From positions 386,431 through 450,430 of the forward strand of contig NZ_LMNG01000031.1 of NCBI RefSeq assembly GCF_001423295.1: 64,000 nt of DNA. Reading direction: 5' to 3'. The translations under genes and the position numbers were made by a program. This stretch comes from Methylobacterium sp. Leaf112. Its GTDB lineage: Bacteria > Pseudomonadota > Alphaproteobacteria > Rhizobiales > Beijerinckiaceae. Each line of letters starts with the position of its first letter. The first letter of the stretch is position 1. The notes below the pieces were generated by a model. That model was not told where the DNA came from. It searched no databases and saw nothing but the letters and a program-made list of their open reading frames with translations. Shown here piece after piece: positions 48,880-64,000 of the stretch.

Positions 48880-50988
48880 GTGACTGACAGCATGATCGGC
48901 CTCGACGACGGCGTTCCTGCGCCGCTCGGGGCGCATTTCGATGGCCGGGGCGTGAACTTCGCGCTGTTCTCGCAGAACGCCACCGCGGTGGACCTGTGCC
49001 TGTTCGAACCCGGCGAACGACTCGAGACGCGGCGTATCCGGCTCCCCTGCCGCACGGACGATGTCTGGCACGGACACCTGCGCGGGGTGTTTCCCGGCCA
49101 GCTCTACGGCTACCGCGTCCATGGCCCGTGGGACCCGGCGCGTGGGCACAGGTTCAACCCGGCCAAACTTCTCCTCGACCCCTACGCCCGCGAGATCCAG
49201 GGCCGGATTCGCTGGCACGACGCCCTCTACGGCCATCGGCGTGGCCTGCAGCGCGAGGACCAGATCGACCGGCGCGACAGCGCGGCCTACATGCCGCGCG
49301 GCGTCGTCACCGCGCCGGAGGTGCCCGACCTCGCCATCAACCCCATGCGCCGGCCCTTGTCGCAGACGGTGATCTACGAGGCCCACGTCAAGGCGCTGAC
49401 GCAGCTCCACCCCGACGTTCCCGAGGCCGCACGCGGCACCTACGCGGCGCTCGCCCATCCGGCGATCATCGAACACCTCCTGAAGCTCGGCGTCACCGCC
49501 CTCCAGCTCCTGCCGATCCAGGCCTTCGCCGACGACCGCTTCCTCATCGACAAGGGGCTGGTGAATTTCTGGGGCTACTCGCCGCTGAACTATTTCGCCC
49601 TCGATCCGCGCTACCGCGGGCCGGCCGGCATCGGCGGCCTCAAGGCGGCGATCCGCGAGTTGGCGGCCGCCGAGATCGAGGTGTTCCTCGACGTGGTCTA
49701 CAACCACACGGCCGAGGCCGACCATTCCGGCCCGACCCTGTCGTTCCGCGGCATCGACAACGCGAGCTATTACAAGCTCGACCCGTCCAACCCGCGCCGC
49801 GAGATCGACTGTACCGGCTGCGGCAACACCCTCGACCTCGACCATCCCCGGGTGATGCAGCTCACCCTCGATTCCCTGCGCCACTGGGTGACAGCCTACG
49901 GCGTCGCCGGCTTCCGCTTCGACCTCGCCACCAGTCTCGGCCGCACGCCCCACGATTTTTCGGCGAAGGCCGCGTTCTTCCAGGCCGTGGCCCAGGATCC
50001 GGTTCTCTCGCGGGTCAAGATGATCGCCGAACCCTGGGACATCGGCCAGGGCGGGTACCAGCTCGGGGCCTATCCGCGCGGTTGGAGCGAGTGGAACGAC
50101 CAGTTCCGTGACAGCGTGCGCGGGTTCTGGCGCGGTGACCCGGGCGTCTTGCCGAAGGTCACGCAGGGGTTGTCGGGCTCGCGCGAGATCTTCGCCGCCT
50201 CCGGGCGCACGCCGCTCGCGAGCATCAACTACGCCGCTTCCCACGACGGTTTCACCCTCGCCGACGTCGTCGCCTACGAGGACAAGCACAACCTCGCCAA
50301 CGGCGAGGACAACCGCGACGGCCACGGCCACAACCTCACGCGCAATTACGGTGTCGAGGGTCCGAGCGACGATCCCGCGATCCTGTCCGTACGCGCCCGC
50401 CAGAAGCGCAACATCCTCGCCACGATCTTCCTGGCGCAGGGCGTGCCGATGCTGCTGATGGGCGACGAGCGCTCGCGCAGCCAGAATGGGAACAACAACG
50501 CCTACAACCAGGACAACGCCACGAACTGGGTCGATTGGGAGAGCGACCCAGATCCGGCGCTCACGGCCTTCGTCGCGAACCTCACCCGCCTGCGCCGGGA
50601 GCAGCCGGCCCTGCGCCGACGCGACTTCCTGACCGGGGGTGCCGTGGGTGAGAGCCCGTTGCGCGACGTGCACTGGCTGTCGCCCTGCGGGGCGGAGATG
50701 GATGGCGCGGCCTGGGCCGACGACGGCCGCCAGACTTTCGGCATGCAGATCGGCAACGATCTGCCCGATGCCGACCGCCTCCTGCTCCTCGTCAATGCCG
50801 CCGAGTCCCCGTGCGATTTCACCCTCGCGCCGATCATCGACGGACCCTGGAGCCTGATGTTCGACACCACACGGGCGACCGGTGCCGTACCCGAAGGGCA
50901 GACCCTGTTTCCGGCCGGCGCGCGCGTGCATCTCGAGCCGCGTGCGCTCTATGTCCTGCGGACACGACCGGCGACGTACGGACGTTAG
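48880..50988 (+). CDS. glgX: Glycogen debranching enzyme GlgX
   Basis: 702 residues from GTG 48880. A CBM48 domain (~15-110, VNFALFSQNATAVDLCLFEPG) precedes the GH13 barrel, with nucleophile Asp in AGFRFDLATSLGR (~347), acid Glu in MIAEPWDIG (~383) and Asp in ASHDGFTLAD (~454). It hydrolyses alpha-1,6 branches of phosphorylase-limit or short side chains, giving linear maltooligosaccharides, the substrates of TreY. Cytosolic. Confidence 0.94.
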   Translation: MTDSMIGLDDGVPAPLGAHFDGRGVNFALFSQNATAVDLCLFEPGERLETRRIRLPCRTDDVWHGHLRGVFPGQLYGYRVHGPWDPARGHRFNPAKLLLDPYAREIQGRIRWHDALYGHRRGLQREDQIDRRDSAAYMPRGVVTAPEVPDLAINPMRRPLSQTVIYEAHVKALTQLHPDVPEAARGTYAALAHPAIIEHLLKLGVTALQLLPIQAFADDRFLIDKGLVNFWGYSPLNYFALDPRYRGPAGIGGLKAAIRELAAAEIEVFLDVVYNHTAEADHSGPTLSFRGIDNASYYKLDPSNPRREIDCTGCGNTLDLDHPRVMQLTLDSLRHWVTAYGVAGFRFDLATSLGRTPHDFSAKAAFFQAVAQDPVLSRVKMIAEPWDIGQGGYQLGAYPRGWSEWNDQFRDSVRGFWRGDPGVLPKVTQGLSGSREIFAASGRTPLASINYAASHDGFTLADVVAYEDKHNLANGEDNRDGHGHNLTRNYGVEGPSDDPAILSVRARQKRNILATIFLAQGVPMLLMGDERSRSQNGNNNAYNQDNATNWVDWESDPDPALTAFVANLTRLRREQPALRRRDFLTGGAVGESPLRDVHWLSPCGAEMDGAAWADDGRQTFGMQIGNDLPDADRLLLLVNAAESPCDFTLAPIIDGPWSLMFDTTRATGAVPEGQTLFPAGARVHLEPRALYVLRTRPATYGR

Positions 50989-51173: not shown

Positions 51174-52985
51174 ATGCGGCGAGCCCATGCGATGGCCTTC
51201 GGCGGCGAAGCGGGAAAAGATGGCGTGCGGTTCGCCCTCTGGGCCCCCACGGCACAAAGCGTCGCCCTGGTGGTCGATGGAACGGACCATGACATTCCGG
51301 ATGCCGGCGAGGGTTGGCGACGCGTCACCCTACCGGGCGTGAAAGCCGGGGCACGCTACGGCTACCGCATCGACAACGATCTCGTGGTGCCCGACCCGGC
51401 GTCGCGGTTTCAGCCCGACGACGTGTCCGGCCTGAGCGAGGTGATCGACCCGCGCAGCTTCGACTGGAGCGATTCCGACTGGACCGGACGCCCGTGGGAG
51501 GAAACCGTCCTCTACGAACTCCATGTCGGCACGGCGACGCGAGAGGGCACCTACGCGGCCCTCGAAGGCAAGCTCGAAGAGCTGCGCGACCTCGGCGTCA
51601 CCGCCATCGAGCTGCTGCCGCTGGCCGACTTCAAGGGCACCCGCAACTGGGGCTACGACGGCGTGCTGCCCTACGCGCCGGACGGTGCCTATGGCCGCCC
51701 CGACGATCTCAAGCGCCTCGTCGACAAGGCGCATTCGCTCGGCCTGATGGTCTTCCTCGACGCGGTCTACAACCACTTCGGGCCGGCCGGGAACTACCTC
51801 CACGCCTATGCCAAGACGTTCTTCACGGAGCGGCACCAGACGCCGTGGGGTGCGGGCATCAACTTCGACGGCGAGACCAGCGGCCGGACGGTGCGGGACT
51901 TCTTCATCGAGAATTCCCTGTACTGGCTCGAAGAGTACCACTTCGATGGCCTGCGCTTCGACGCGGTGCACGCCATCCTCGACGATTCCGAGAAACACTT
52001 CATCGGTGAGCTCGCCGAGACCATCCGGGCGCGTCTGCCCGGCCGCCACATCCATCTGGTCTTGGAGAACGAGGCCAATCAGGCCAAGTGGCTGGAGCGC
52101 AAGGACGACGGCCAGCCCGTCCAGCACACGGCGCAATGGGCCGACGACCTGCACCATTGCTGGCACGTGCTGCTGACGGGCGAAGAAGCCGGCTACTACG
52201 AGAGTTTCGCGGACAAACCCGTCGCGCATCTCGCCCGCTGCCTGTCGGAGGGCTTCGCCTACCAGGGCGAGCCGTTCCCGACCCTCGACAACCACCCGCG
52301 CGGCGAACCCTCGGCGCATCTGCCGCCGTCGGCCTTCGTCACCTTCCTGCAGAACCACGATCAGGTCGGCAACCGGGCCCTCGGCGAGCGCCTGAGCGCG
52401 CTCTCGGACCCGGCCAAGCTGGCCCTCGCCCGCGCCGGCCTGCTGCTCAGCCCGCAGATACCGATGCTGTGGATGGGCGAGGAGTGGTCGGCGACGGCGC
52501 CGTTCCTGTTCTTCGTCGATTTCGCGCCGGACGAGGAGTTGAACAAGTCCGTCCGCGAGGGCCGGCGGCGCGAGTTCAAGAGCTTCGCGGCGTTCGCGGA
52601 CGACACATCGGTGATTCCCGATCCGACGGAGGAGAAGACCTTCACGGATTCGCGGATCGACTGGTCGGAGATCGAGCGTGCGCCGCATCGCGGGGTCTGG
52701 GCCGACACCCGCAACCTCCTGCAGATCCGGCATCAGACCGTCGTGCCGCTCACCAAGACCGCCTATCGGGGAGCAACGGCTTCCCTGCCGCGTCCGGACG
52801 CCGCGGAGTGCACGTGGCGCTACGAAGGCGGCTGGCTTCGCTTCGTTGCCAACTTCGGCGACGCGCCGCTCCAGACGGCGCGCGGCGGCGGCCAGATCGT
52901 CTGGTGCAACGGCGCCGACGTCGTCACCGGGCAGACCATCGAACTCCCGTCCTGGACGGGCATCTTCCTGACGGGTGTGAACTGA
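51174..52985 (+). CDS. treZ: Maltooligosyltrehalose trehalohydrolase TreZ
   Basis: 603 residues. An N-terminal CBM48 domain (RFALWAPTAQSVALVVDG) precedes the GH13 barrel with Asp in FDGLRFDAVHAI (~262), Glu in LVLENEANQ (~298) and Asp in FLQNHDQVGNR (~395), plus YELHVGTATREGTY and GYDGVLPYAPDGAYG. It cuts the terminal trehalose from maltooligosyltrehalose made by TreY. ATG 51192 is an in-frame alternative start. The stop overlaps the next ATG (TGATG at 52983-52987), linking it tightly with the treY-bearing gene. The 185-bp gap before it has no motif I can name. Confidence 0.94.
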   Translation: MRRAHAMAFGGEAGKDGVRFALWAPTAQSVALVVDGTDHDIPDAGEGWRRVTLPGVKAGARYGYRIDNDLVVPDPASRFQPDDVSGLSEVIDPRSFDWSDSDWTGRPWEETVLYELHVGTATREGTYAALEGKLEELRDLGVTAIELLPLADFKGTRNWGYDGVLPYAPDGAYGRPDDLKRLVDKAHSLGLMVFLDAVYNHFGPAGNYLHAYAKTFFTERHQTPWGAGINFDGETSGRTVRDFFIENSLYWLEEYHFDGLRFDAVHAILDDSEKHFIGELAETIRARLPGRHIHLVLENEANQAKWLERKDDGQPVQHTAQWADDLHHCWHVLLTGEEAGYYESFADKPVAHLARCLSEGFAYQGEPFPTLDNHPRGEPSAHLPPSAFVTFLQNHDQVGNRALGERLSALSDPAKLALARAGLLLSPQIPMLWMGEEWSATAPFLFFVDFAPDEELNKSVREGRRREFKSFAAFADDTSVIPDPTEEKTFTDSRIDWSEIERAPHRGVWADTRNLLQIRHQTVVPLTKTAYRGATASLPRPDAAECTWRYEGGWLRFVANFGDAPLQTARGGGQIVWCNGADVVTGQTIELPSWTGIFLTGVN

Positions 52986-55900
52986 TGAGCCGCGACCTCG
53001 AACGCCTCGCCGATCTCCTCGGCGTCGCCCCCGGCTACACCGACGCCTTCGGGCAGCCCGTCGAGACGAGCCTGGAGACCCGGGCCGGCATGATCGCCGC
53101 CCTCGGCTTCCCGGTGGGCACCGATGCCGAGATCGCCGGGAGTCTCGCGGAAGTGACGGCGGTCCGCGAGGGCCTCGTTCCGTCGCTCCTGCCGGTCGAG
53201 GCCCGACGGGCCACGCGGGTACCCCTGCGGGCGTCGTCGGCCGGCACCCTGGCGTGGCGCCTCGTCGACGAGCGCGGCCATGTCCGCGAGGGCCGCGTCG
53301 CGGTTTCGGCCTCAGGTGACGCCGGCTTCGAGCTTCCGCCGCTCACGCCCGGCTACCACCGTCTGATCGCGACCCTCGGCGAGCACCGCGCCGAGTCCTG
53401 GGTCATCGCCGCGCCGCAGCGCTGCTGGCGTCCGCGCGCCTATGCGGACGAGGGTGCGCGCGATTGGGGGCTCGCGGCCCAGCTCTACGGCCTGCGCTCG
53501 CCGGACAACCTCGGCATCGGCTCCTACGCGGATGCCGGGCGGGCCGCCCGCGACGCCGGCCTGCGCGGCGCGTCGTTCCTCGGCCTCAGCCCGGTCCACG
53601 CCCTGTTCGCCACCGACCGCACCAAGATCTCGCCTTATTCGCCGTCCTCGCGCCTGTTCCTCGAGACCCTGTTCATCGAGCCCGGTGTCCTGCCGGGCTT
53701 CGTCGGCTCGAAGGCGTTCGCCCTCCTCGATTCCATGTCCGCGCGCGTCGAGGCCCTGCGCGAATCGAAGCTCGTCGACCACGCCGGTATCTGGGGCGTG
53801 CTCTCGCCGGTGCTCCGCGCCCTGTGGCAGGAATCCGCCGTCCGCGACGGCACCGATGCGCGCTTTGCCGCCTTCCGCACCGCCGGGGGGGCCGATCTCG
53901 AAGCCCACGGCACGTTCGAGGCGCTGGCCGAACATTTCCAGGGCCAGGGCGCCCAATGGCTCGGCGATTGGCCGGAAGAGTTCCAACGCAACGGCACCGA
54001 GGCCGTGCGGGCCTTCGCGGTCGAGCACGCCGAGGCCGTGACCTATCACGTGTGGCTCCAGTACCTCGCCGACCGGCAGCTCGAAGAGGCATCCGAGATC
54101 GCGCTGGGCACCGGCATGCGTCTCGGCCTCTACCGCGACCTCGCCGTGGGCGCCGATCGCGGCGGGTCCGAGATCTGGTCCCACCCCGAGCGCTTCGCCA
54201 ACGGCGTCTCCATCGGCGCCCCGCCCGACCTGCTCGCCCCGAAGGGCCAGGATTGGGGCCTCCCGGCCTTCCATCCGCTGGAACTGGAGCGGGACGGGCT
54301 CGCCGCCTTCCGGGCGCTGGTCCAGGCGAACATGCGCCACGCCGGTGCCATCCGCATCGACCACGCGTTCCAGCTCGCCCGCCTGTTCCTGATCCCGCTG
54401 GGCGCCACGGCCCAGGCCGGCGCCTACGTGGCGATGCCGTTCGAGCCGATGCTGGCCGTGCTGCGCCTCGAGAGCCACCGGGCGAAGTGCCTCGTCATCG
54501 CCGAGGATCTCGGCACGGCACCCGAGGGCTTCTCCGATGCCCTGATGCAGGCCGGAATCCTGAGCTACCGCATCCTCGCCTTCGAGCGCGAGCAGGGCGC
54601 CCGCTTCAAGCCGCCGGCCGCCTATCCGCGCGAGGCGCTGACGGCCATCACCACCCACGACCTGCCGACCTTCCTCGGCTGGTGGCGCGGCGTCGACACC
54701 GACACCCGCCAGGCGCTCGGCCTCTACGATTCCGAGCGCGCCGACGCCGAGCGGCGCGAGCGCGTTGACGAGCGCACCCGCCTCACCGAGGCGTTGGCCG
54801 CCGAGCAGTTGCTGCCGAGCTACGATCCGCCGGAAGCCGCGCCCTTGGAGGCCGCCGCGCGCTACCTCGCCCGCGCGCCGTCGATGCTGACCGCCGTGCA
54901 GTACGAGGACGTGGTCTCCGAACTGTCTCAGGCCAACGTGCCGGGCTCGACGGAGGGCTACCCGAACTGGCGGCGCAAGCTCGACCGGACCCTCGAGGCC
55001 ATCGCGGCCCCGGGCGGGCCGCTGGCCAAGCTCGCTGCCTCCCTGGCGGCCGAGGAACGCGGGCCGCGCTCGGGTGCCGCGCGCCTCGCCTCGGCCCCGC
55101 CGCGCGCCACCTATCGCCTGCAGTTCCACAAGGACTTCACCTTCGCGGACGCGGAAAAGATCGTTCCGTACCTGGCGAAACTCGGCATCAGCCACGTCTA
55201 CGCCTCGCCGATCCAGAAGGCGCGGCCGGGCTCGACCCACGGCTACGACATCGTCGATCACGCCACCATCAACCCGGAGCTCGGCGGGGAAGAGGGCTTC
55301 GTGCGCTTCTCCGAGACCCTGCACGCGGCCGGACTGAAGCTGCTCCTCGACATCGTTCCGAACCACATGGGCGTCGGCGGGGCCGACAATCCGTGGTGGC
55401 TCTCGGTGCTCGAATGGGGCGGCCTGTCGCCCCACGCGGACGCGTTCGACATCGACTGGTCGCGCCTCGGCGCGAACAACAAGCTCGTGGTGCCGTTCCT
55501 CGGCGACCGCTACGGCGAGGCCCTGGAGAAGGGTACGCTCGAACTCAAGTTCGACCCGCAGAAAGGCGCCTTCAGCGTCTGGCACTACGAGCACGAATTC
55601 CCGATCTGCCCGCAGCAATATCCGACCATCCTCAACCGCTCGCTGGCGGCGCTGGGCGACATCGAGGACGCTGCGGCCCTCGAAGTGCTGGGGATCTCCG
55701 AACGCCTGCGCCTCATGGGCGAGGAGACCAATGCGGAACGCCGCATGGCTTTCCCGGCCGAGGCCGAGGACCTGAAGGAGCGCCTCGTCGAAGCGGTTGC
55801 GGCGTCGCCCGCCATCGCGGAGGCCATCGGGCGGACCCTTCGCCTGTTGAACGGCGCCAAGGGCCATCCCGACAGCTTCGGGCCCCTGCACCGCCTGCTG

Positions 55901-57892
55901 GAACAGCAATCCTACCGGCTCGCCCATTGGCGGGTGGCGGCGAGCGACATCAACTATCGCCGGTTCTTCGACGTGAACGGGCTCGCGGGCCTGCGCGTCG
56001 AGAAGTCGGATGTGTTCCAGCGTTCGCACGAGACGGTGTTCCGCCACATCCGCGAGGGCCGCATCGACGGGCTGCGCATCGACCACATCGACGGTCTCGC
56101 CGATCCGCAGGGCTACGCCCGCGCCCTGCAGGCCGCCGTCGGCCCCGGCTTCTACGTCGTCGTGGAGAAGATTCTGGAGCCCGGCGAGCGCCTGCGGCCA
56201 TGGCCCGTCGCCGGCACCACCGGCTACGACGTGCTGAACCAGCTCGACGGCATCCTGGTCGACAAGGGCAAGCAAGCGGCGATCCGCGACCTCTACGAGG
56301 CGCGCACGCATTTCGACGAGCCCTACAAGTTCCAGCTTCGCGCGGCCAAGGCCGAGATCCTGGAGATCAGCTTCGCTTCGGAACTCGAGGTGATGACCTC
56401 CGACCTCAAGGCCGTGGCCGATGCCGACAGGCGCACCCGCGACTTTTCGGTGAACGCCATCCGTCGGGCGCTCATCGAGATCATCGCGCGTTTCCCCACC
56501 TATCGCAGCTATCTGCCGGGTGACCTCGACGAGAGCGACGTCGAGGACGAGGATGTCCGCCTCATCGAGAACGCGGTGAAGAAGGCCAAGCGCTGGAGCG
56601 CCCTGCCGGACCGCTCCGTGCACGACTTCGCCGCCGACGCCATGCTGGGCCGCATCGACGTCACCGGACCAGGCCGCCCCGATCCGGCGGTGATCCTGCG
56701 CTTCCGCCGCCGCTTCCAGCAGCTCACCGGCCCGGTCATGGCGAAGAGCCTGGAGGACACGCTGTTCTACCGCTTCTCCGAATTGCTGGCGCTGAACGAG
56801 GTCGGCGGCGATCCGGGCGAGTACGGCATCGACGCGGAGCATTTCCACGCCCTCCAGGCGGCCCGGGCCCGCGACTGGCCCAACGCCATGATCGCGACGG
56901 CGACGCACGACACCAAGCGGGGCGAGGACGCCCGCTCGCGCCTGCTCGCCCTCTCGGAGATGCCCGGGGACTGGGCCGAGGCCTGGACCACGTGGCGGGA
57001 ATTGGCCGGGCCGCACCTCACCACCATCGACGGCGAGGCGGTGCCGGATGCCAACGACCAATGGATGTTCTTCCAGGCGATCCTGGGCGCGTGGCCGCTG
57101 GAATTGCTTGACGACGACGAGCCCGCGGCCATTGAGGATTTCCGCACGCGCCTCGACGCCTATTCCGAAAAAGCCCTGCGCGAGGCGAAGCGCCGGTCGA
57201 GCTGGGTCAACGTCGACGAATCCTACGAGGGCGCCGTCCACGCCCTCTTCGCCAAGCTCGTGGTCCCGGGCTCGGAGTTCCTGGCGCGGATGCGGCCCTT
57301 CGCCAAGCGTCTGGCGCATCTCGGCATGATCGCGGGCCTCGGCCGCACGGTGCTGAAGGCGACCCTGCCGGGCCTGCCCGACACCTACCAGGGCACGGAG
57401 TTCTGGGACTTCTCGTTCGTCGATCCCGACAATCGTCGCCCGGTGGACTATCCGGCGCTGGCCCGGTCCCTCGAACAGGGCGGCGACGTCGCCGACCTCC
57501 TGGCGCATTGGAGCGACGGACGGGTGAAGCAGGCGACCCTCGCCCGATTGCTCGCCGACCGCACCGAGCGGCCGGCGTTCTACGCCGAGGCGGACTACCA
57601 GGCCGTGGTGCCGACCGGCGGGCGCGCCGCCCATGTCATCGCGTTCACACGTTCGGATGCGACGAGTGGCGCGGGCGACCTTCTGGTGGCCGTGCCGCGC
57701 CTCGTTTCCGACCTCGTCGGGGATGCGGTGTGGAGCGGGGCGGGGTTCGCTGGAACATACCTGCCGGTGATGGCTGAAAGTGCCTGGATCGACCTCGTCA
57801 CCGGGGAGACCGCCGAGGCGACGGACGGACGAATCGAACTCGACCGCCTGTTCGCGCGTCTGCCCTACGCGGTCCTGAAGCGGACGGCTTAA
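52985..57892 (+). CDS. treY: Fused 4-alpha-glucanotransferase (MalQ) - maltooligosyltrehalose synthase (TreY)
   Basis: 1635 residues joining two full enzymes. Residues ~1-690 are a GH77 MalQ (AAQLYGLRSPDNLGIGSYAD; Asp ~458 in IRIDHAFQLARL; Glu ~507 in VIAEDLGTAPEGF; Asp ~558 in TTHDLPTFLGW). Residues ~705-1635 are a GH13 TreY (ATYRLQFHKDFTFADAEKIV; Asp ~1032 in LRIDHIDGLAD; Glu ~1061 in VVVEKILEPGER; Asp ~1308 in TATHDTKRGEDARS). MalQ reshuffles short glucans into longer chains; TreY turns the reducing end into a trehalose unit for TreZ. All catalytic residues are present. MalQ and TreY are usually separate. Confidence 0.93.
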   Translation: MSRDLERLADLLGVAPGYTDAFGQPVETSLETRAGMIAALGFPVGTDAEIAGSLAEVTAVREGLVPSLLPVEARRATRVPLRASSAGTLAWRLVDERGHVREGRVAVSASGDAGFELPPLTPGYHRLIATLGEHRAESWVIAAPQRCWRPRAYADEGARDWGLAAQLYGLRSPDNLGIGSYADAGRAARDAGLRGASFLGLSPVHALFATDRTKISPYSPSSRLFLETLFIEPGVLPGFVGSKAFALLDSMSARVEALRESKLVDHAGIWGVLSPVLRALWQESAVRDGTDARFAAFRTAGGADLEAHGTFEALAEHFQGQGAQWLGDWPEEFQRNGTEAVRAFAVEHAEAVTYHVWLQYLADRQLEEASEIALGTGMRLGLYRDLAVGADRGGSEIWSHPERFANGVSIGAPPDLLAPKGQDWGLPAFHPLELERDGLAAFRALVQANMRHAGAIRIDHAFQLARLFLIPLGATAQAGAYVAMPFEPMLAVLRLESHRAKCLVIAEDLGTAPEGFSDALMQAGILSYRILAFEREQGARFKPPAAYPREALTAITTHDLPTFLGWWRGVDTDTRQALGLYDSERADAERRERVDERTRLTEALAAEQLLPSYDPPEAAPLEAAARYLARAPSMLTAVQYEDVVSELSQANVPGSTEGYPNWRRKLDRTLEAIAAPGGPLAKLAASLAAEERGPRSGAARLASAPPRATYRLQFHKDFTFADAEKIVPYLAKLGISHVYASPIQKARPGSTHGYDIVDHATINPELGGEEGFVRFSETLHAAGLKLLLDIVPNHMGVGGADNPWWLSVLEWGGLSPHADAFDIDWSRLGANNKLVVPFLGDRYGEALEKGTLELKFDPQKGAFSVWHYEHEFPICPQQYPTILNRSLAALGDIEDAAALEVLGISERLRLMGEETNAERRMAFPAEAEDLKERLVEAVAASPAIAEAIGRTLRLLNGAKGHPDSFGPLHRLLEQQSYRLAHWRVAASDINYRRFFDVNGLAGLRVEKSDVFQRSHETVFRHIREGRIDGLRIDHIDGLADPQGYARALQAAVGPGFYVVVEKILEPGERLRPWPVAGTTGYDVLNQLDGILVDKGKQAAIRDLYEARTHFDEPYKFQLRAAKAEILEISFASELEVMTSDLKAVADADRRTRDFSVNAIRRALIEIIARFPTYRSYLPGDLDESDVEDEDVRLIENAVKKAKRWSALPDRSVHDFAADAMLGRIDVTGPGRPDPAVILRFRRRFQQLTGPVMAKSLEDTLFYRFSELLALNEVGGDPGEYGIDAEHFHALQAARARDWPNAMIATATHDTKRGEDARSRLLALSEMPGDWAEAWTTWRELAGPHLTTIDGEAVPDANDQWMFFQAILGAWPLELLDDDEPAAIEDFRTRLDAYSEKALREAKRRSSWVNVDESYEGAVHALFAKLVVPGSEFLARMRPFAKRLAHLGMIAGLGRTVLKATLPGLPDTYQGTEFWDFSFVDPDNRRPVDYPALARSLEQGGDVADLLAHWSDGRVKQATLARLLADRTERPAFYAEADYQAVVPTGGRAAHVIAFTRSDATSGAGDLLVAVPRLVSDLVGDAVWSGAGFAGTYLPVMAESAWIDLVTGETAEATDGRIELDRLFARLPYAVLKRTA

Positions 57893-57903
57893 ACGCCTTT
57901 CAC

Positions 57904-58036
57904 AACCCTCCCCCCTGCGGGGGAGGGTTCCTGCGGAGCAGGCGGGAGAGGGGACGCCCCCTCCGGACACCGCGCTCCCCTCTCCCGACCCGCTTCGCGG
58001 GCCACCCTCTCCCGCAGAGGGGAGAGGGAAGGCGCC
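57904..58036. repeat. Palindromic intergenic repeat element
   Basis: A mosaic of inverted repeats fills the gap between the treY-bearing gene and glgE: AACCCTCCCCC/GGGGGAGGGTT (57904-57929, 11-bp perfect stem), CCCGC-TTC-GCGGG (57989-58001), and CCCTCTCCC/GGGAGAGGG (57978-58028). This looks like a REP-type dispersed element; copy number elsewhere cannot be checked. It could also attenuate or process the operon transcript. Confidence 0.75.
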
Positions 58037-58062
58037 AGACACCAAACCCCAATGGAGCACGC

Positions 58063-61000
58063 ATGAACGCACCGAGCCCCGCAACGCGTACCGCCCCGCG
58101 GACCGACGCCGGCGTGGTGACGCTCCCGCAGAGCCTCGCACCCCGCGCCGAGGGACCGCGCATCTACAACCTGTTCCCCCTCCTCGTCGGACAGGTCTCG
58201 GCCTGGACGGCCGAACTGCCGCGCATCGCCGGCCTCGGGTTCGACTGGGTGTACCTCAACCCATTCCACCAGACCGGCGGCTCGCGCAGCCTCTACGCGG
58301 TGGCCGACACCGACCGCCTCGACGAGCGCTTCCGCGACCAGGACGGCACCTCCGACGACGAGCAGATCCGCCGCTTCTGCGCCGCAGCCCGCGCTCAGGG
58401 CCTTTCGGTGATGACCGACCTGGTGGTCAACCACACCGCCCGCGACGGCGCGCTCGCCCGCGACCGGCCCGACCTGTTCCTGCGCGACGCCGACGGCGAG
58501 ATCGAGAGCCCCTACGCCGTCGATCCCGACGATCCGAGCAAGCGCACGGTCTGGGGCGACCTCGCCGAGCTCGATTATCACACGGACAAGAGCCGCACGG
58601 AGCTGACCGCCCTGTGGTCGGGCTACGTCAACCGCCTGCAGGATCTCGGCGTCGCCGGCTTCCGCTGCGACGCCGCCTACAAGGTGCCGGCCCCCGTGTG
58701 GCGCGACCTGATCGGGGCCGCCAAGGCGGTGGAGCCCGGGTGCCTGTTCGCCGCCGAGACCCTCGGCTGCACCTTCGAGGAGGCGCAGGCGACGGCGGGC
58801 GCCGGGTTCGACTACCTGTTCAACAGCTTCGCCTGGTGGGACCTCCGGGCTCCCTGGGCCCTGGAACAGTACGACCGCCTGCGCGTCGTCGCCCCTTCCA
58901 TCGCGTTCCCCGAGAACCACGACATGGCCCGCCTCGCGGCGGATCTCGACGGCGATGCCGAGGCCGTCGCCCGCCACCTCAAGGCCCGCTACGCCCTCGC
59001 GGCCTTCTTCTCGGCCGGCGTGCTCATGCCCATCGGGTACGAGTGGGGCTACGCCAAGAGCCTGCACGTGGTCGAGACCACCCCCGAGGCCCGTGAATCC
59101 AGCACCGGCATCGATATCTCCACCTATGTCACCGCCATCAACGCCCTGCGGGCCGAGCTCTCGGCCGCCAACGTCGAGGGGGCGCAGGCGCGGATCTCGG
59201 CTCCCGACGCGGATTTCGTCGCCCTCCTGCGCTTCGACACCGGCCACGGCGCCTCGGCCCGCAACGCCGTGCTGGTGCTGCACAATCCCGGCGCGACGCC
59301 CGTGACGCTGGACGCCGCCCCCCTCGTCGCCCGCACGGGCGGGATGCTCGGTGCCTTCACCGACCGCACGCCGGACGTCGCCCCCATCGCGTTCACGCCC
59401 GGCATCAGCATCGACCTGCAGCCCGGCGAAGTCCGCATCCTGAGCGCCACCCGCGACACGGTCGCGAAGGATCCGCCGCTCACCACGCCGACGGGCGAGG
59501 GCCGCGTCGTGATCGAGGCGGTGTCGCCCGAGATCGACGGCGGCCGCTCGGCGGTCAAGCGCGTGGTCGGCGAGAGCGTCCACGTCACCGCAGACATCTT
59601 CAGCGACGGCCACGAGATCATCGACGCCGAGATCCTGTCCCGCGTCGTCGGCGAGGAGATCTGGGCCTCCGACCCGATGGCGTTCATCGAGAACGACCGC
59701 TGGGGCGGGCACTTTCCCCTGGAGCGCAACGGCCGCTACGAGTTCACCATCCGGGCGTGGCGCGACGCCTTCTCGTCCTGGATGCGCGACACCCTGAAGA
59801 AGCGCGACGCCGGGGTCGACGTCCAGCTGGAGACCGTCGAGGGCATCGCCTTCGTGGTCGACGCCACCGACGAGGCCGACGGCGCCGATCGCGAACGCCT
59901 GAAGGCGCTGGCCACCGCCTTGGACGCCGAGACCACGGGCTCGGCGGCCCAGCTCGACCTCATGCTGGCGCCGGAGAACGCCCGCCTCGTCCGCCGCTAC
60001 GCACCGCGGGTGAACCTGTCGCGCTATCCCGTCAACGTGCCCGTCATCGCCGACCGCCTCGCAGCCCGGTTCTCGGCCTGGTACGAGATCTTCCCGCGCT
60101 CGCAGTCCATGGACGTCAGCCGCCACGGCACCTTCGACGACGTGATCGCTCGCCTGCCCGAGATCCGCGAACTCGGCTTCGACGTGCTGTACTTCACCCC
60201 GATCCACCCCATCGGCAAGACCAACCGCAAGGGCAAGAACAACACCCTCAAGGCGCTGGAAGGCGATGTCGGCTCGGTCTACGCCGTCGGCTCGGAGGCG
60301 GGCGGGCACGAGGCGGTGCATCCCGACCTCGGCACCCTCGAGGATTTCCGCCGGCTGGTGGCGGCGAGCCACGCCTACGGCATGGAGATCGCCCTCGACT
60401 TCGCCATCCAGTGCTCGCCCGATCACCCCTGGATCAAGGACCACCCCGAGTGGTTCGAGTGGCGCCCCGACGGCACGCTCAAGTTCGCCGAGAATCCGCC
60501 GAAGAAGTACGAGGACATCTCCAACGTCCACTTCTATGGCGGTGCCATGCCGTCCCTGTGGATCGAGCTGCGCGACATCGTGCTCGGCTGGGCCGCCCTG
60601 GGTGCCCGCATCTTCCGCGTTGACAATCCGCACACCAAGCCGATCCCGTTCTGGGAGTGGATGATCGGAGAGGTGAACGGCCGCTACCCGGACGTGATCT
60701 TCCTCGCCGAGGCCTTCACCCGGCCCAAGATGATGAAGAAGCTCGCCAAGGCCGGCTACCAGCAGAGCTACACCTACTTCACCTGGCGCGACACCAAGGC
60801 CGACCTCATCGCCTACTCCACCGAGCTCGCCGGCGAGATGGGCGAGTATTACCGGCCGAACTTCTTCGCCAACACGCCCGACATCAACCCGATCTACCTG
60901 CAGACCAGCGGGCGGGCCGGATTCGTGGTGCGCGCCACCCTCGCCGCGACGCTGTCGAGCGTCTGGGGCATCTACAACGGCTTCGAACTCTGCGAGGCCG

Positions 61001-61446
61001 CGCCCTATCCCGGTAAGGAAGAGTATCTCAACTCCGAAAAGTACGAGCTGAAGGCCTGGGACTACGACCGGCCCGGCAACATCCGTGAGCACATCGTCAA
61101 GCTCAACCGCATCCGCCAGGACAACCCGGCCCTGTGGGATTTCCGCAATGTGGTGTTCACGGGCGCCTACAACGACGAGATCATCGCCTACGCCAAGACG
61201 ACGCCCGAGGGCGACAACTGCATCTTCACCATGGTCAACCTCGACCCGAAGAACCGCCAGGAATGCACCTACGAGGTGCCGCTCTGGCTTCTCGGCCAAC
61301 CCGACGACGGCGCCGTCGAGGTCGAGGACCTGTTGCTGGGCTACACGTTCGAACTGCGGGGCAAATCCCACCGCATCGCCTTCGATCCGGCCGAGCGTTC
61401 GGCCATCGTCTGGCGCCTTCGGGCCCCGCGCCGGGTTGCGCCTTGA
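58063..61446 (+). CDS. glgE: GlgE maltosyltransferase with extra N-terminal GH13 domain
   Basis: 1127 residues; ordinary GlgE is about 650-700. The C-terminal ~650 residues are full GlgE, starting VVIEAVSPEIDGGRSAVKR, with Asp ~853 in IFRVDNPHTKP, Glu ~880 in IFLAEAFTRPKMM and the ANTPDINP loop near 940. GlgE adds maltose from maltose-1-phosphate to alpha-glucan. The N-terminal ~440 residues are a second GH13 barrel with its own triad: Asp ~202 in AGFRCDAAYKVP, Glu ~231 in FAAETLG, Asp ~286 in PENHDMARL. Its activity is unknown. The gene follows the palindromic repeat. Confidence 0.92.
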   Translation: MNAPSPATRTAPRTDAGVVTLPQSLAPRAEGPRIYNLFPLLVGQVSAWTAELPRIAGLGFDWVYLNPFHQTGGSRSLYAVADTDRLDERFRDQDGTSDDEQIRRFCAAARAQGLSVMTDLVVNHTARDGALARDRPDLFLRDADGEIESPYAVDPDDPSKRTVWGDLAELDYHTDKSRTELTALWSGYVNRLQDLGVAGFRCDAAYKVPAPVWRDLIGAAKAVEPGCLFAAETLGCTFEEAQATAGAGFDYLFNSFAWWDLRAPWALEQYDRLRVVAPSIAFPENHDMARLAADLDGDAEAVARHLKARYALAAFFSAGVLMPIGYEWGYAKSLHVVETTPEARESSTGIDISTYVTAINALRAELSAANVEGAQARISAPDADFVALLRFDTGHGASARNAVLVLHNPGATPVTLDAAPLVARTGGMLGAFTDRTPDVAPIAFTPGISIDLQPGEVRILSATRDTVAKDPPLTTPTGEGRVVIEAVSPEIDGGRSAVKRVVGESVHVTADIFSDGHEIIDAEILSRVVGEEIWASDPMAFIENDRWGGHFPLERNGRYEFTIRAWRDAFSSWMRDTLKKRDAGVDVQLETVEGIAFVVDATDEADGADRERLKALATALDAETTGSAAQLDLMLAPENARLVRRYAPRVNLSRYPVNVPVIADRLAARFSAWYEIFPRSQSMDVSRHGTFDDVIARLPEIRELGFDVLYFTPIHPIGKTNRKGKNNTLKALEGDVGSVYAVGSEAGGHEAVHPDLGTLEDFRRLVAASHAYGMEIALDFAIQCSPDHPWIKDHPEWFEWRPDGTLKFAENPPKKYEDISNVHFYGGAMPSLWIELRDIVLGWAALGARIFRVDNPHTKPIPFWEWMIGEVNGRYPDVIFLAEAFTRPKMMKKLAKAGYQQSYTYFTWRDTKADLIAYSTELAGEMGEYYRPNFFANTPDINPIYLQTSGRAGFVVRATLAATLSSVWGIYNGFELCEAAPYPGKEEYLNSEKYELKAWDYDRPGNIREHIVKLNRIRQDNPALWDFRNVVFTGAYNDEIIAYAKTTPEGDNCIFTMVNLDPKNRQECTYEVPLWLLGQPDDGAVEVEDLLLGYTFELRGKSHRIAFDPAERSAIVWRLRAPRRVAP

Positions 61447-61454
61447 ACGCACCC

Positions 61455-61615: not shown

Positions 61616-61619
<4 letters not shown>
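61455..61619 (+). CDS. Possible 54-residue leader ORF overlapping treS start
   Basis: ATG 61455 to TGA 61617-61619 encodes a Pro/Thr/Ala-rich peptide (PIPPTDAAPGDPRTGPGAHT) whose stop overlaps the treS ATG (ATGA at 61616). The ribosome binding site is weak and the composition is low complexity. It could act by translational coupling or be a chance frame; the gap 61447-61615 otherwise holds nothing. Confidence 0.25.

Positions 61620-64000
<2,381 letters not shown>

Follow-up and report, generated by a model that had tools for sequence, protein, structure and literature searches.

A GlgE of Methylobacterium with a second, N-terminal GH13 domain whose catalytic triad is intact, and the decay of this domain in other bacteria

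The subject of this analysis is a gene at 58063-61446 in a 64,000-nucleotide stretch of DNA from Methylobacterium sp. Leaf112 (hereafter the window), which encodes a GlgE fused to an additional N-terminal GH13 domain, here called N-GH13. The N-domain is a genuine member of GH13, and its catalytic triad is intact. In the window protein it is very probably catalytically active, as judged from its residues, and we regard it as about equally probable that it is, or is not, an exo-acting maltose-unit enzyme, either a hydrolase or a glucan:glucan maltosyltransferase. A preliminary description of the window had already pointed out the second domain. What is new beyond it is a family of free-standing N-GH13 genes, together with the repeated decay of the fused domain to a retained non-catalytic form. 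The features of the fusion gene, all on the forward strand, are as follows.

58063..61446, forward strand: N-GH13-GlgE fusion gene, an open reading frame of 1127 amino acids (aa) and the sole full-length match in the genome.
58144..59472, forward strand: N-terminal GH13 domain, aa 28-470 (barrel, short domain B and C-terminal part), from an AlphaFold2 model with a predicted local distance difference test (pLDDT) score of 84.6, partial Pfam and NCBIfam matches and alignment.
58558..58560, forward strand: Asp166, counterpart of GlgE Asp359 and AmyB Asp135 (non-reducing-end sugar), from the column table described below; kept in 78 of 78 relatives.
58669..58671, forward strand: Asp203, catalytic nucleophile of the N-domain, from motif CDAAYK and the column table; 78 of 78.
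58756..58758, forward strand: Glu232, acid/base of the N-domain, from motif AAETLG and the column table; 78 of 78.
58834..58839, forward strand: Trp258-Trp259, from the column table, Trp258 aligning with the GlgE acceptor residue Trp448; the pair is also present in 22 of 26 degenerate domains.
58921..58923, forward strand: Asp287, third catalytic Asp of the N-domain, from motif ENHDMA; 78 of 78.
59500..60057, forward strand: GlgE domain N/S, aa 480-665 (PF11896, GlgE_dom_N_S, 174 bits, E 4.7e-51).
60088..61416, forward strand: GlgE catalytic and C-terminal domains (PF00128, PF21702), with the triad Asp854, Glu883 and Asp940 intact.

The architecture given in the preliminary description, a GlgE with a second GH13 domain, was confirmed: the open reading frame was exact, Pfam detected a GH13 domain starting at aa 676 and GLGE_C at aa 1034-1118, and the N-terminal region gave a GH13 signal of its own at aa 40-137 (PF14701, 67 bits, cut-off 27). 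The C-terminal half belongs to GH13_3 (GlgE), as it has the N/S domain, the triad, and the donor and phosphate residues, the latter two being conserved in the window row wherever the columns could be aligned. The N-domain belongs to GH13 by its conserved regions I-IV, its Asp-Glu-Asp triad and its fold matches to GH13 structures. The only further match to the fusion protein in the genome was weak and was the GH13 domain of the neighbouring TreS. A full-length AlphaFold2 model had pLDDT 69 and a predicted TM-score of 0.62, and the relative placement of the two halves is not read from it.

Conservation was followed at 80 related loci. The alignment was formed by the 78 that yielded full-length fused proteins, while L032 and L036, outside it, were checked for motifs alone and carried the N-domain motifs in an open frame. 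The three motifs that had been taken for a triad were present in the window, and D203, E232 and D287 were kept in all 78 relatives, together with H124, D166, R201, C202, W258, W259 and H286; the GlgE triad was likewise kept in 78 of 78. The nearest named relatives were from Methylobacterium (93% in the N-domain). The N-domain triad was also found in all seven more distant fusions of the active group (L109-L114, L185). Codon comparisons by the NG86 method indicated purifying selection on the N-domain in eight of eight active-form pairs (omega 0.12-0.33, with dS only rough at such GC content), and its nonsynonymous divergence (dN) was 0.99-2.12 times that of the GlgE part.

The position of the N-domain within GH13 was determined with a tree of 37 sequences in 12 groups, including 15 N-GH13 rows and four references taken as GH13_48 for their resemblance to 3dhu; GH13_22, GH13_25 and GH13_38 lay outside it. 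The 15 N-GH13s formed their own clade (support 100/99), which joined the GlgE catalytic domain (97/93) and then GH13_48 (95/91). By its sequences, the clade falls in none of the GH13 subfamilies included in the tree. The phylogenetic placement proposed in the preliminary description has thus been made, and it does not put the N-domain inside a subfamily of established activity. The best tree puts N-GH13 with GlgE; a single clade of N-GH13 and GH13_48 was not rejected (p 0.36). Grouping of N-GH13, GH13_48 and GH13_49 was not rejected either (p 0.106) in a tree from which an Aerococcus GH13_48 row with lost GH13 motifs and a Gemmatirosa row in a wrong reading frame had been left out, and this is the tree used here; the one containing both gave p 0.023. 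Barrel identity of the window domain and of the free-standing L147 to all references was 18-30%. The distinctness of the N-domain from GlgE, TreS and GlgX, claimed earlier, is borne out by this clade and by barrel identities of 25, 21 and 23% to the GlgE, TreS and GlgX of the window itself.

The profile-nearest solved proteins were Thermotoga neapolitana AmyB (4gkl), the Lactobacillus plantarum protein 3dhu, the T. maritima maltosyltransferase, mycobacterial GlgE and glycogen debranching enzyme. In fold comparison the N-domain model matched 3dhu with Z 33.6 (root-mean-square deviation (rmsd) 2.8, 382 residues aligned), GlgE with Z 33.1 (rmsd 3.1, 404 aligned) and AmyB with Z 31.5 (rmsd 3.0, 386 aligned), 3dhu and the seven GlgE rows beneath it being tied within one Z unit. 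The top Foldseek match was GlgE (E 2.8e-28). Like the GH13_48 maltogenic amylases (AmyB and 3dhu, fold Z 31.5-33.6), the N-domain has a Cys before the nucleophile, the equivalent of Asp135 and a short domain B; unlike them, it shows barrel identity of 26-30%, lacks GQ in conserved sequence region VII (CSR-VII) and stands in its own clade.

GH13_48 and GH13_49 have been defined by sequence marks, and GH13_48 members attack from the non-reducing end and release maltose (PMC11239784, in the portion available). According to the same portion, L-[DN] ends CSR-V in 262 of 304 published GH13_48 members, and GH13_48 and GH13_49 combined show 85.5% conservation of the GQ that ends CSR-VII. The Cys directly before the nucleophile (FRCD), a mark common to both subfamilies, was found in 78 of 78 close relatives of the window protein and in 25 of 26 domains of the wider active set. 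CSR-V ends in LD in the window and in FD, LS, ID or LN in some relatives. The GH13_49 marks, a CSR-II ending in [WY]-[GA] and an Asp preceding the acid/base, were absent from N-GH13, in which CSR-II ends in YK or YQ and the residue before the acid/base is mostly Ala (Asp in 0 of 15 rows). N-GH13 probably works like a GH13_48 enzyme; it is not filed as one because the GQ of CSR-VII is absent.

The active site was read from a column table of seven N-GH13 rows, using the residue roles given for GlgE in the available parts of PMC4526890 and PMC5076824; the columns for Asp480, Lys534 and Tyr535 were misaligned and were not used. The catalytic Arg, Asp and Glu of GlgE were kept in N-GH13, as were Asp359 and Ser/Val279 of the -2 pocket. 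In the acceptor site Trp448 was kept and Arg449 was not. All four residues of the phosphate pocket (Asn352, Lys355, Tyr357 and Asn395) were replaced in the seven rows, so that the N-domain does not have the pocket that characterises GH13_3. As far as these columns tell, the site is of maltosyl type without a phosphate site. The maltose unit size and the attack on chain ends are suggested by D166 and by kinship.

N-GH13 therefore resembles GlgE (Mycobacterium tuberculosis 4u33, Streptomyces coelicolor 3zss) in its sister position and fold (Z about 33) and in retaining the catalytic residues, the Asp of the -2 pocket and the Trp of the acceptor site, but differs from it in its barrel (24-30% identity) and in having neither phosphate pocket nor N/S domain. 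The sister grouping (97/93) and the top Foldseek rank of GlgE are what one would expect of a duplicated GlgE that also uses maltose-1-phosphate. This origin is nevertheless very improbable, given that four of four phosphate-binding residues are replaced, that no GlgE N/S domain accompanies the N-domain, and that four of the seven free-standing genes have TreZ-TreY, not GlgE, as neighbours. Because the phosphate pocket of GlgE is missing, maltose-1-phosphate would not be a substrate of N-GH13.

N-GH13 is most likely an alpha-glucan enzyme with a retaining GH13 mechanism, in which Asp203 would be the nucleophile, Glu232 the acid/base and Asp287 the third catalytic residue. Its context is that of alpha-glucan metabolism: it is fused to GlgE or, in six of seven free-standing cases, lies beside TreZ-TreY, GlgA-GH57 or GlgE. 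In the fusion it would remove maltosyl units from the chains under extension by GlgE, or rearrange them there, and free maltose could be returned via the neighbouring TreS-Mak. Activity, exo action, maltose-unit size and this division of labour are all put forward here as predictions from residues, kinship and gene context. The preliminary description had suggested that the domain primes or trims the glucan made by GlgE. Priming is the weaker half of that suggestion, since GlgE is able to start chains without a primer (PMC11046441, in the portion available).

Several observations weigh against an exo-acting maltose-unit enzyme. The -2 residues Lys264 and Asn268 of GlgE have no counterpart in N-GH13, and GY or GF stands in the place of the GH13_48 GQ mark in the 15 N-GH13 rows. 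The best Pfam match of the N-domain, over about 100 residues, is the glucanotransferase domain of debranching enzymes (PF14701), which points to chain transfer. No recognised alpha-glucan gene adjoins the free-standing L173 or the fused L178 and L185. Finally, MalQ, another mover of short glucan pieces, was present in 12 of 12 genomes checked (the seven with free-standing N-GH13, the window's own and four with active fusions), which puts the need for a second transferase in doubt. In the same 12 genomes, GlgX was found in 12 and GlgA in 11, and the idea that free-standing N-GH13 substitutes for either MalQ or GlgX in its genome was rejected.

The PF14701 match bears most directly on a possible though less likely function, that of a 4-alpha-glucanotransferase or endo-acting alpha-amylase which remodels inner chains. 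Such remodelling would benefit the TreZ-TreY neighbours; debranching enzymes are among the profile-nearest solved proteins, and the best NCBIfam match of the free-standing L174 is a debranching enzyme model, TIGR01531, at 51 bits, far under its cut-off. The similarity to the glucanotransferase domain of GH13_25 is confined to aa 40-137, where the match is over the cut-off; it spans positions 16-115, roughly a quarter of the 439-position profile, and debranching structures score under AmyB or GlgE. Moreover, MalQ and GlgX already occur in the 12 genomes, and all 78 relatives retain the Asp in the pocket for the non-reducing-end sugar, GH13_25 itself being outside the tree. In a sweep of 299 genomes with PF14701, whose control matches were only in T. 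maritima, eight genomes matched and six of the matches were N-GH13s; we take the remaining two (L211, L212) to resemble amylosucrase.

The distribution of the domain was examined in three genome samples and in plasmid records. In the order sample (150 genomes) GlgE was found in 27 (E up to 1e-30), with frames of at least 1081 aa in nine and of 682-751 aa in 18. In the class sample (385 genomes) there was a match in 40 (E up to 1e-80), and the frames of 22 of these GlgE-bearing genomes, at least 1010 aa, are long enough for an extra N-terminal domain. The phylum sample (398 genomes) gave a strong N-domain match in 10 (E up to 1e-25), of which two belong to other classes. Some match was found in 173 plasmid records, among them 139 of Rhizobium, five of Azospirillum and four of Burkholderia; the weaker of these matches may be other GH13s.

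Seven free-standing N-GH13 genes were found in total, all with the triad kept. Three (G296, G473, G490) came from the class sample, and the free-standing form occurred in 6 of 17 genomes of the order of G296. In L147, L148, L175 and L176 the gene is followed by TreZ and TreY; in L174 it lies downstream of GlgA and a GH57 gene; in L149 it lies upstream of a GlgE gene broken into two frames; and in L173 no recognised alpha-glucan enzyme adjoins it. The fused genes of Azospirillum (L185) and of G494 (L178) are also not beside recognised glg genes. The split GlgE of L149 (8186-10199) runs over two overlapping frames, which reflects a frameshift, decay of the gene or an assembly error. A gene for a KaiC-type double ATPase was observed upstream of the free-standing N-GH13-TreZ-TreY operon in two of the four loci (L147:6851-8416, L148:12226-13926), with a PAS histidine kinase between it and the operon in L148; a regulatory link of the KaiC-type gene to trehalose synthesis is possible.

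An alignment of 52 N-domains was used to follow the decay of the domain. By their motifs, 26 were classed as active (19 fused, 7 free-standing) and 26 as degenerate. Against a profile of the active set the degenerate domains scored 37-381 bits, while 520 shuffles gave at most 1.7 bits, and by this comparison all 26 are true homologues. All three catalytic residues were lost in 19 of them, one was kept in five and two were kept in two. Rhizobium leguminosarum (L187) and Burkholderia multivorans (L186) carry degenerate domains, and the N-domain of Tistrella (L203) is of the same type. In L116 (G163) Asn occupies the nucleophile position and region I is shortened, while its genus-mate L113 (G295) has the triad intact; on these residues, the two are a natural pair for recent loss of activity. 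The term "apparently active" in the preliminary description thus holds for the window lineage and some others, in which the triad is kept, but not for the architecture as a whole, as the triad is lost in many fused relatives.

At 98 positions the active set was near-invariant. Of these, the Trp pair W258-W259 was kept in 22 of 26 degenerate domains, in comparison with 3 of 26 for each of D166, D203, E232 and D287 and 0 of 26 for H124. The Trp pair may be structural and not solely sugar-binding, because the other well-kept positions of the degenerate domains are mostly Gly, Pro and Phe. In five of five degenerate pairs the omega of the N-domain was 0.15-0.34 and its dN was 2.35-4.16 times that of the GlgE part; the mixed pair L113-L116 gave an omega of 0.22 and a dN ratio of 1.92. 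These values indicate that the degenerate domains evolve faster but not freely, and the alignments show the fused domain retained after loss of catalytic residues in many related bacteria.

The 26 fused domains with partial or total triad loss, the purifying selection on them and their retention of the Trp pair would agree with a non-catalytic module for docking glucan, or for structure, in the window protein too. For that protein such a role is improbable: all 78 close relatives retain the triad together with Arg201, His124, His286 and Asp166, whereas Asp166, Asp203, Glu232 and Asp287 are each rare in the degenerate domains, and free-standing forms with an intact triad exist.

The history of the fusion was read on a GlgE tree rooted on two actinobacterial sequences. 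The GlgE of L149, with its split frames, was not in the GlgE trees, and six Methylobacteriaceae rows present in the 52-domain alignment were thinned from the domain and GlgE trees. One group, with support of 93 in the approximate likelihood ratio test (SH-aLRT), took in every fused row and, with three exceptions, the unfused proteobacterial rows as well. Active fusions occurred at several deep branch points of this group, and degenerate and unfused rows were nested within it; the tree required five changes between fused and unfused and nine among three states, its branching order being uncertain as long branches meet at the root. On the simplest reading, an active domain was fused once, early on; catalysis was then lost independently at least twice and probably more often, and the domain itself was lost several times and, in family f67, is found apart from GlgE.

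Taken with the proposed exo-acting function, these data leave room for a more speculative picture, which we consider less likely than not. GlgE of the window would be a polymerase with a built-in exo-trimming site, in which N-GH13 removes or reshuffles maltosyl units at the non-reducing ends that GlgE extends by two glucoses, one protein thereby setting alpha-glucan chain length; in many Alpha- and Betaproteobacteria the site would then have decayed to a non-catalytic glucan clamp keeping the Trp pair, or have been lost or parted from GlgE.

GlgE is a studied drug target and is among the main bacterial routes to glycogen. The N-GH13 family offers a natural series of active free-standing, active fused, dead fused and lost forms, and it opens questions on the passage from enzyme to retained non-catalytic module and on the setting of chain length in GlgE glycogen. 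The literature on the GlgE pathway, in the portions available, makes no mention of an extra N-terminal domain, and the open-access literature yielded no account of a GlgE with a second GH13 domain, subscription journals lying mostly outside the search. Likewise, a search of mostly open-access literature found no description of the activity of the N-domain, as the preliminary description had supposed, but the domain is not a blank, its nearest kin being maltosyl-handling families. TreS-Mak fusions are described in a 2024 review (PMC11046441) and a Pontibacter locus with GH13s beside GlgE genes in PMC11206854; the available portions of both mention no N-GH13-GlgE fusion.

The genes around the fusion gene form an alpha-glucan cluster in the order glgX, treZ, malQ-treY, N-GH13-glgE, treS-mak, with the following members.

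48880..50988, forward strand: glgX, glycogen debranching enzyme (TIGR02100, above cut-off).
51174..52985, forward strand: treZ (TIGR02402, above cut-off).
52985..57892, forward strand: malQ-treY fusion (NF011077, 2501 bits, above cut-off).
61616..64000, forward strand: treS-mak fusion, cut by the window end (TIGR02456, above cut-off; maltokinase part incomplete).

TreS-Mak and MalQ-TreY are, like N-GH13-GlgE, fused alpha-glucan enzymes, and all three lie in this one cluster. The parts of the first two have known activities, whereas none was found assigned for N-GH13; the MalQ-TreY fusion has its own NCBIfam model. Just past the window (G000:C31:452237) lies a GH13 gene of GlgB size, which is GlgB by position and size only. 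A second GlgX gene was found outside the cluster (G000:C23:60276-62357), scoring 1053 bits with TIGR02100 versus 914 for the window copy. A scan of 57700-58200 revealed nothing resembling a promoter or terminator. The 57893-58062 spacer, which separates treY from the fusion gene, contains GC-rich palindromic repeat-like sequence, with a short core (58005-58028) that is unique within the window. On the reverse strand an open frame of 1187 codons (57889-61452) lies opposite the entire fusion gene and is probably a by-product of the high GC content.

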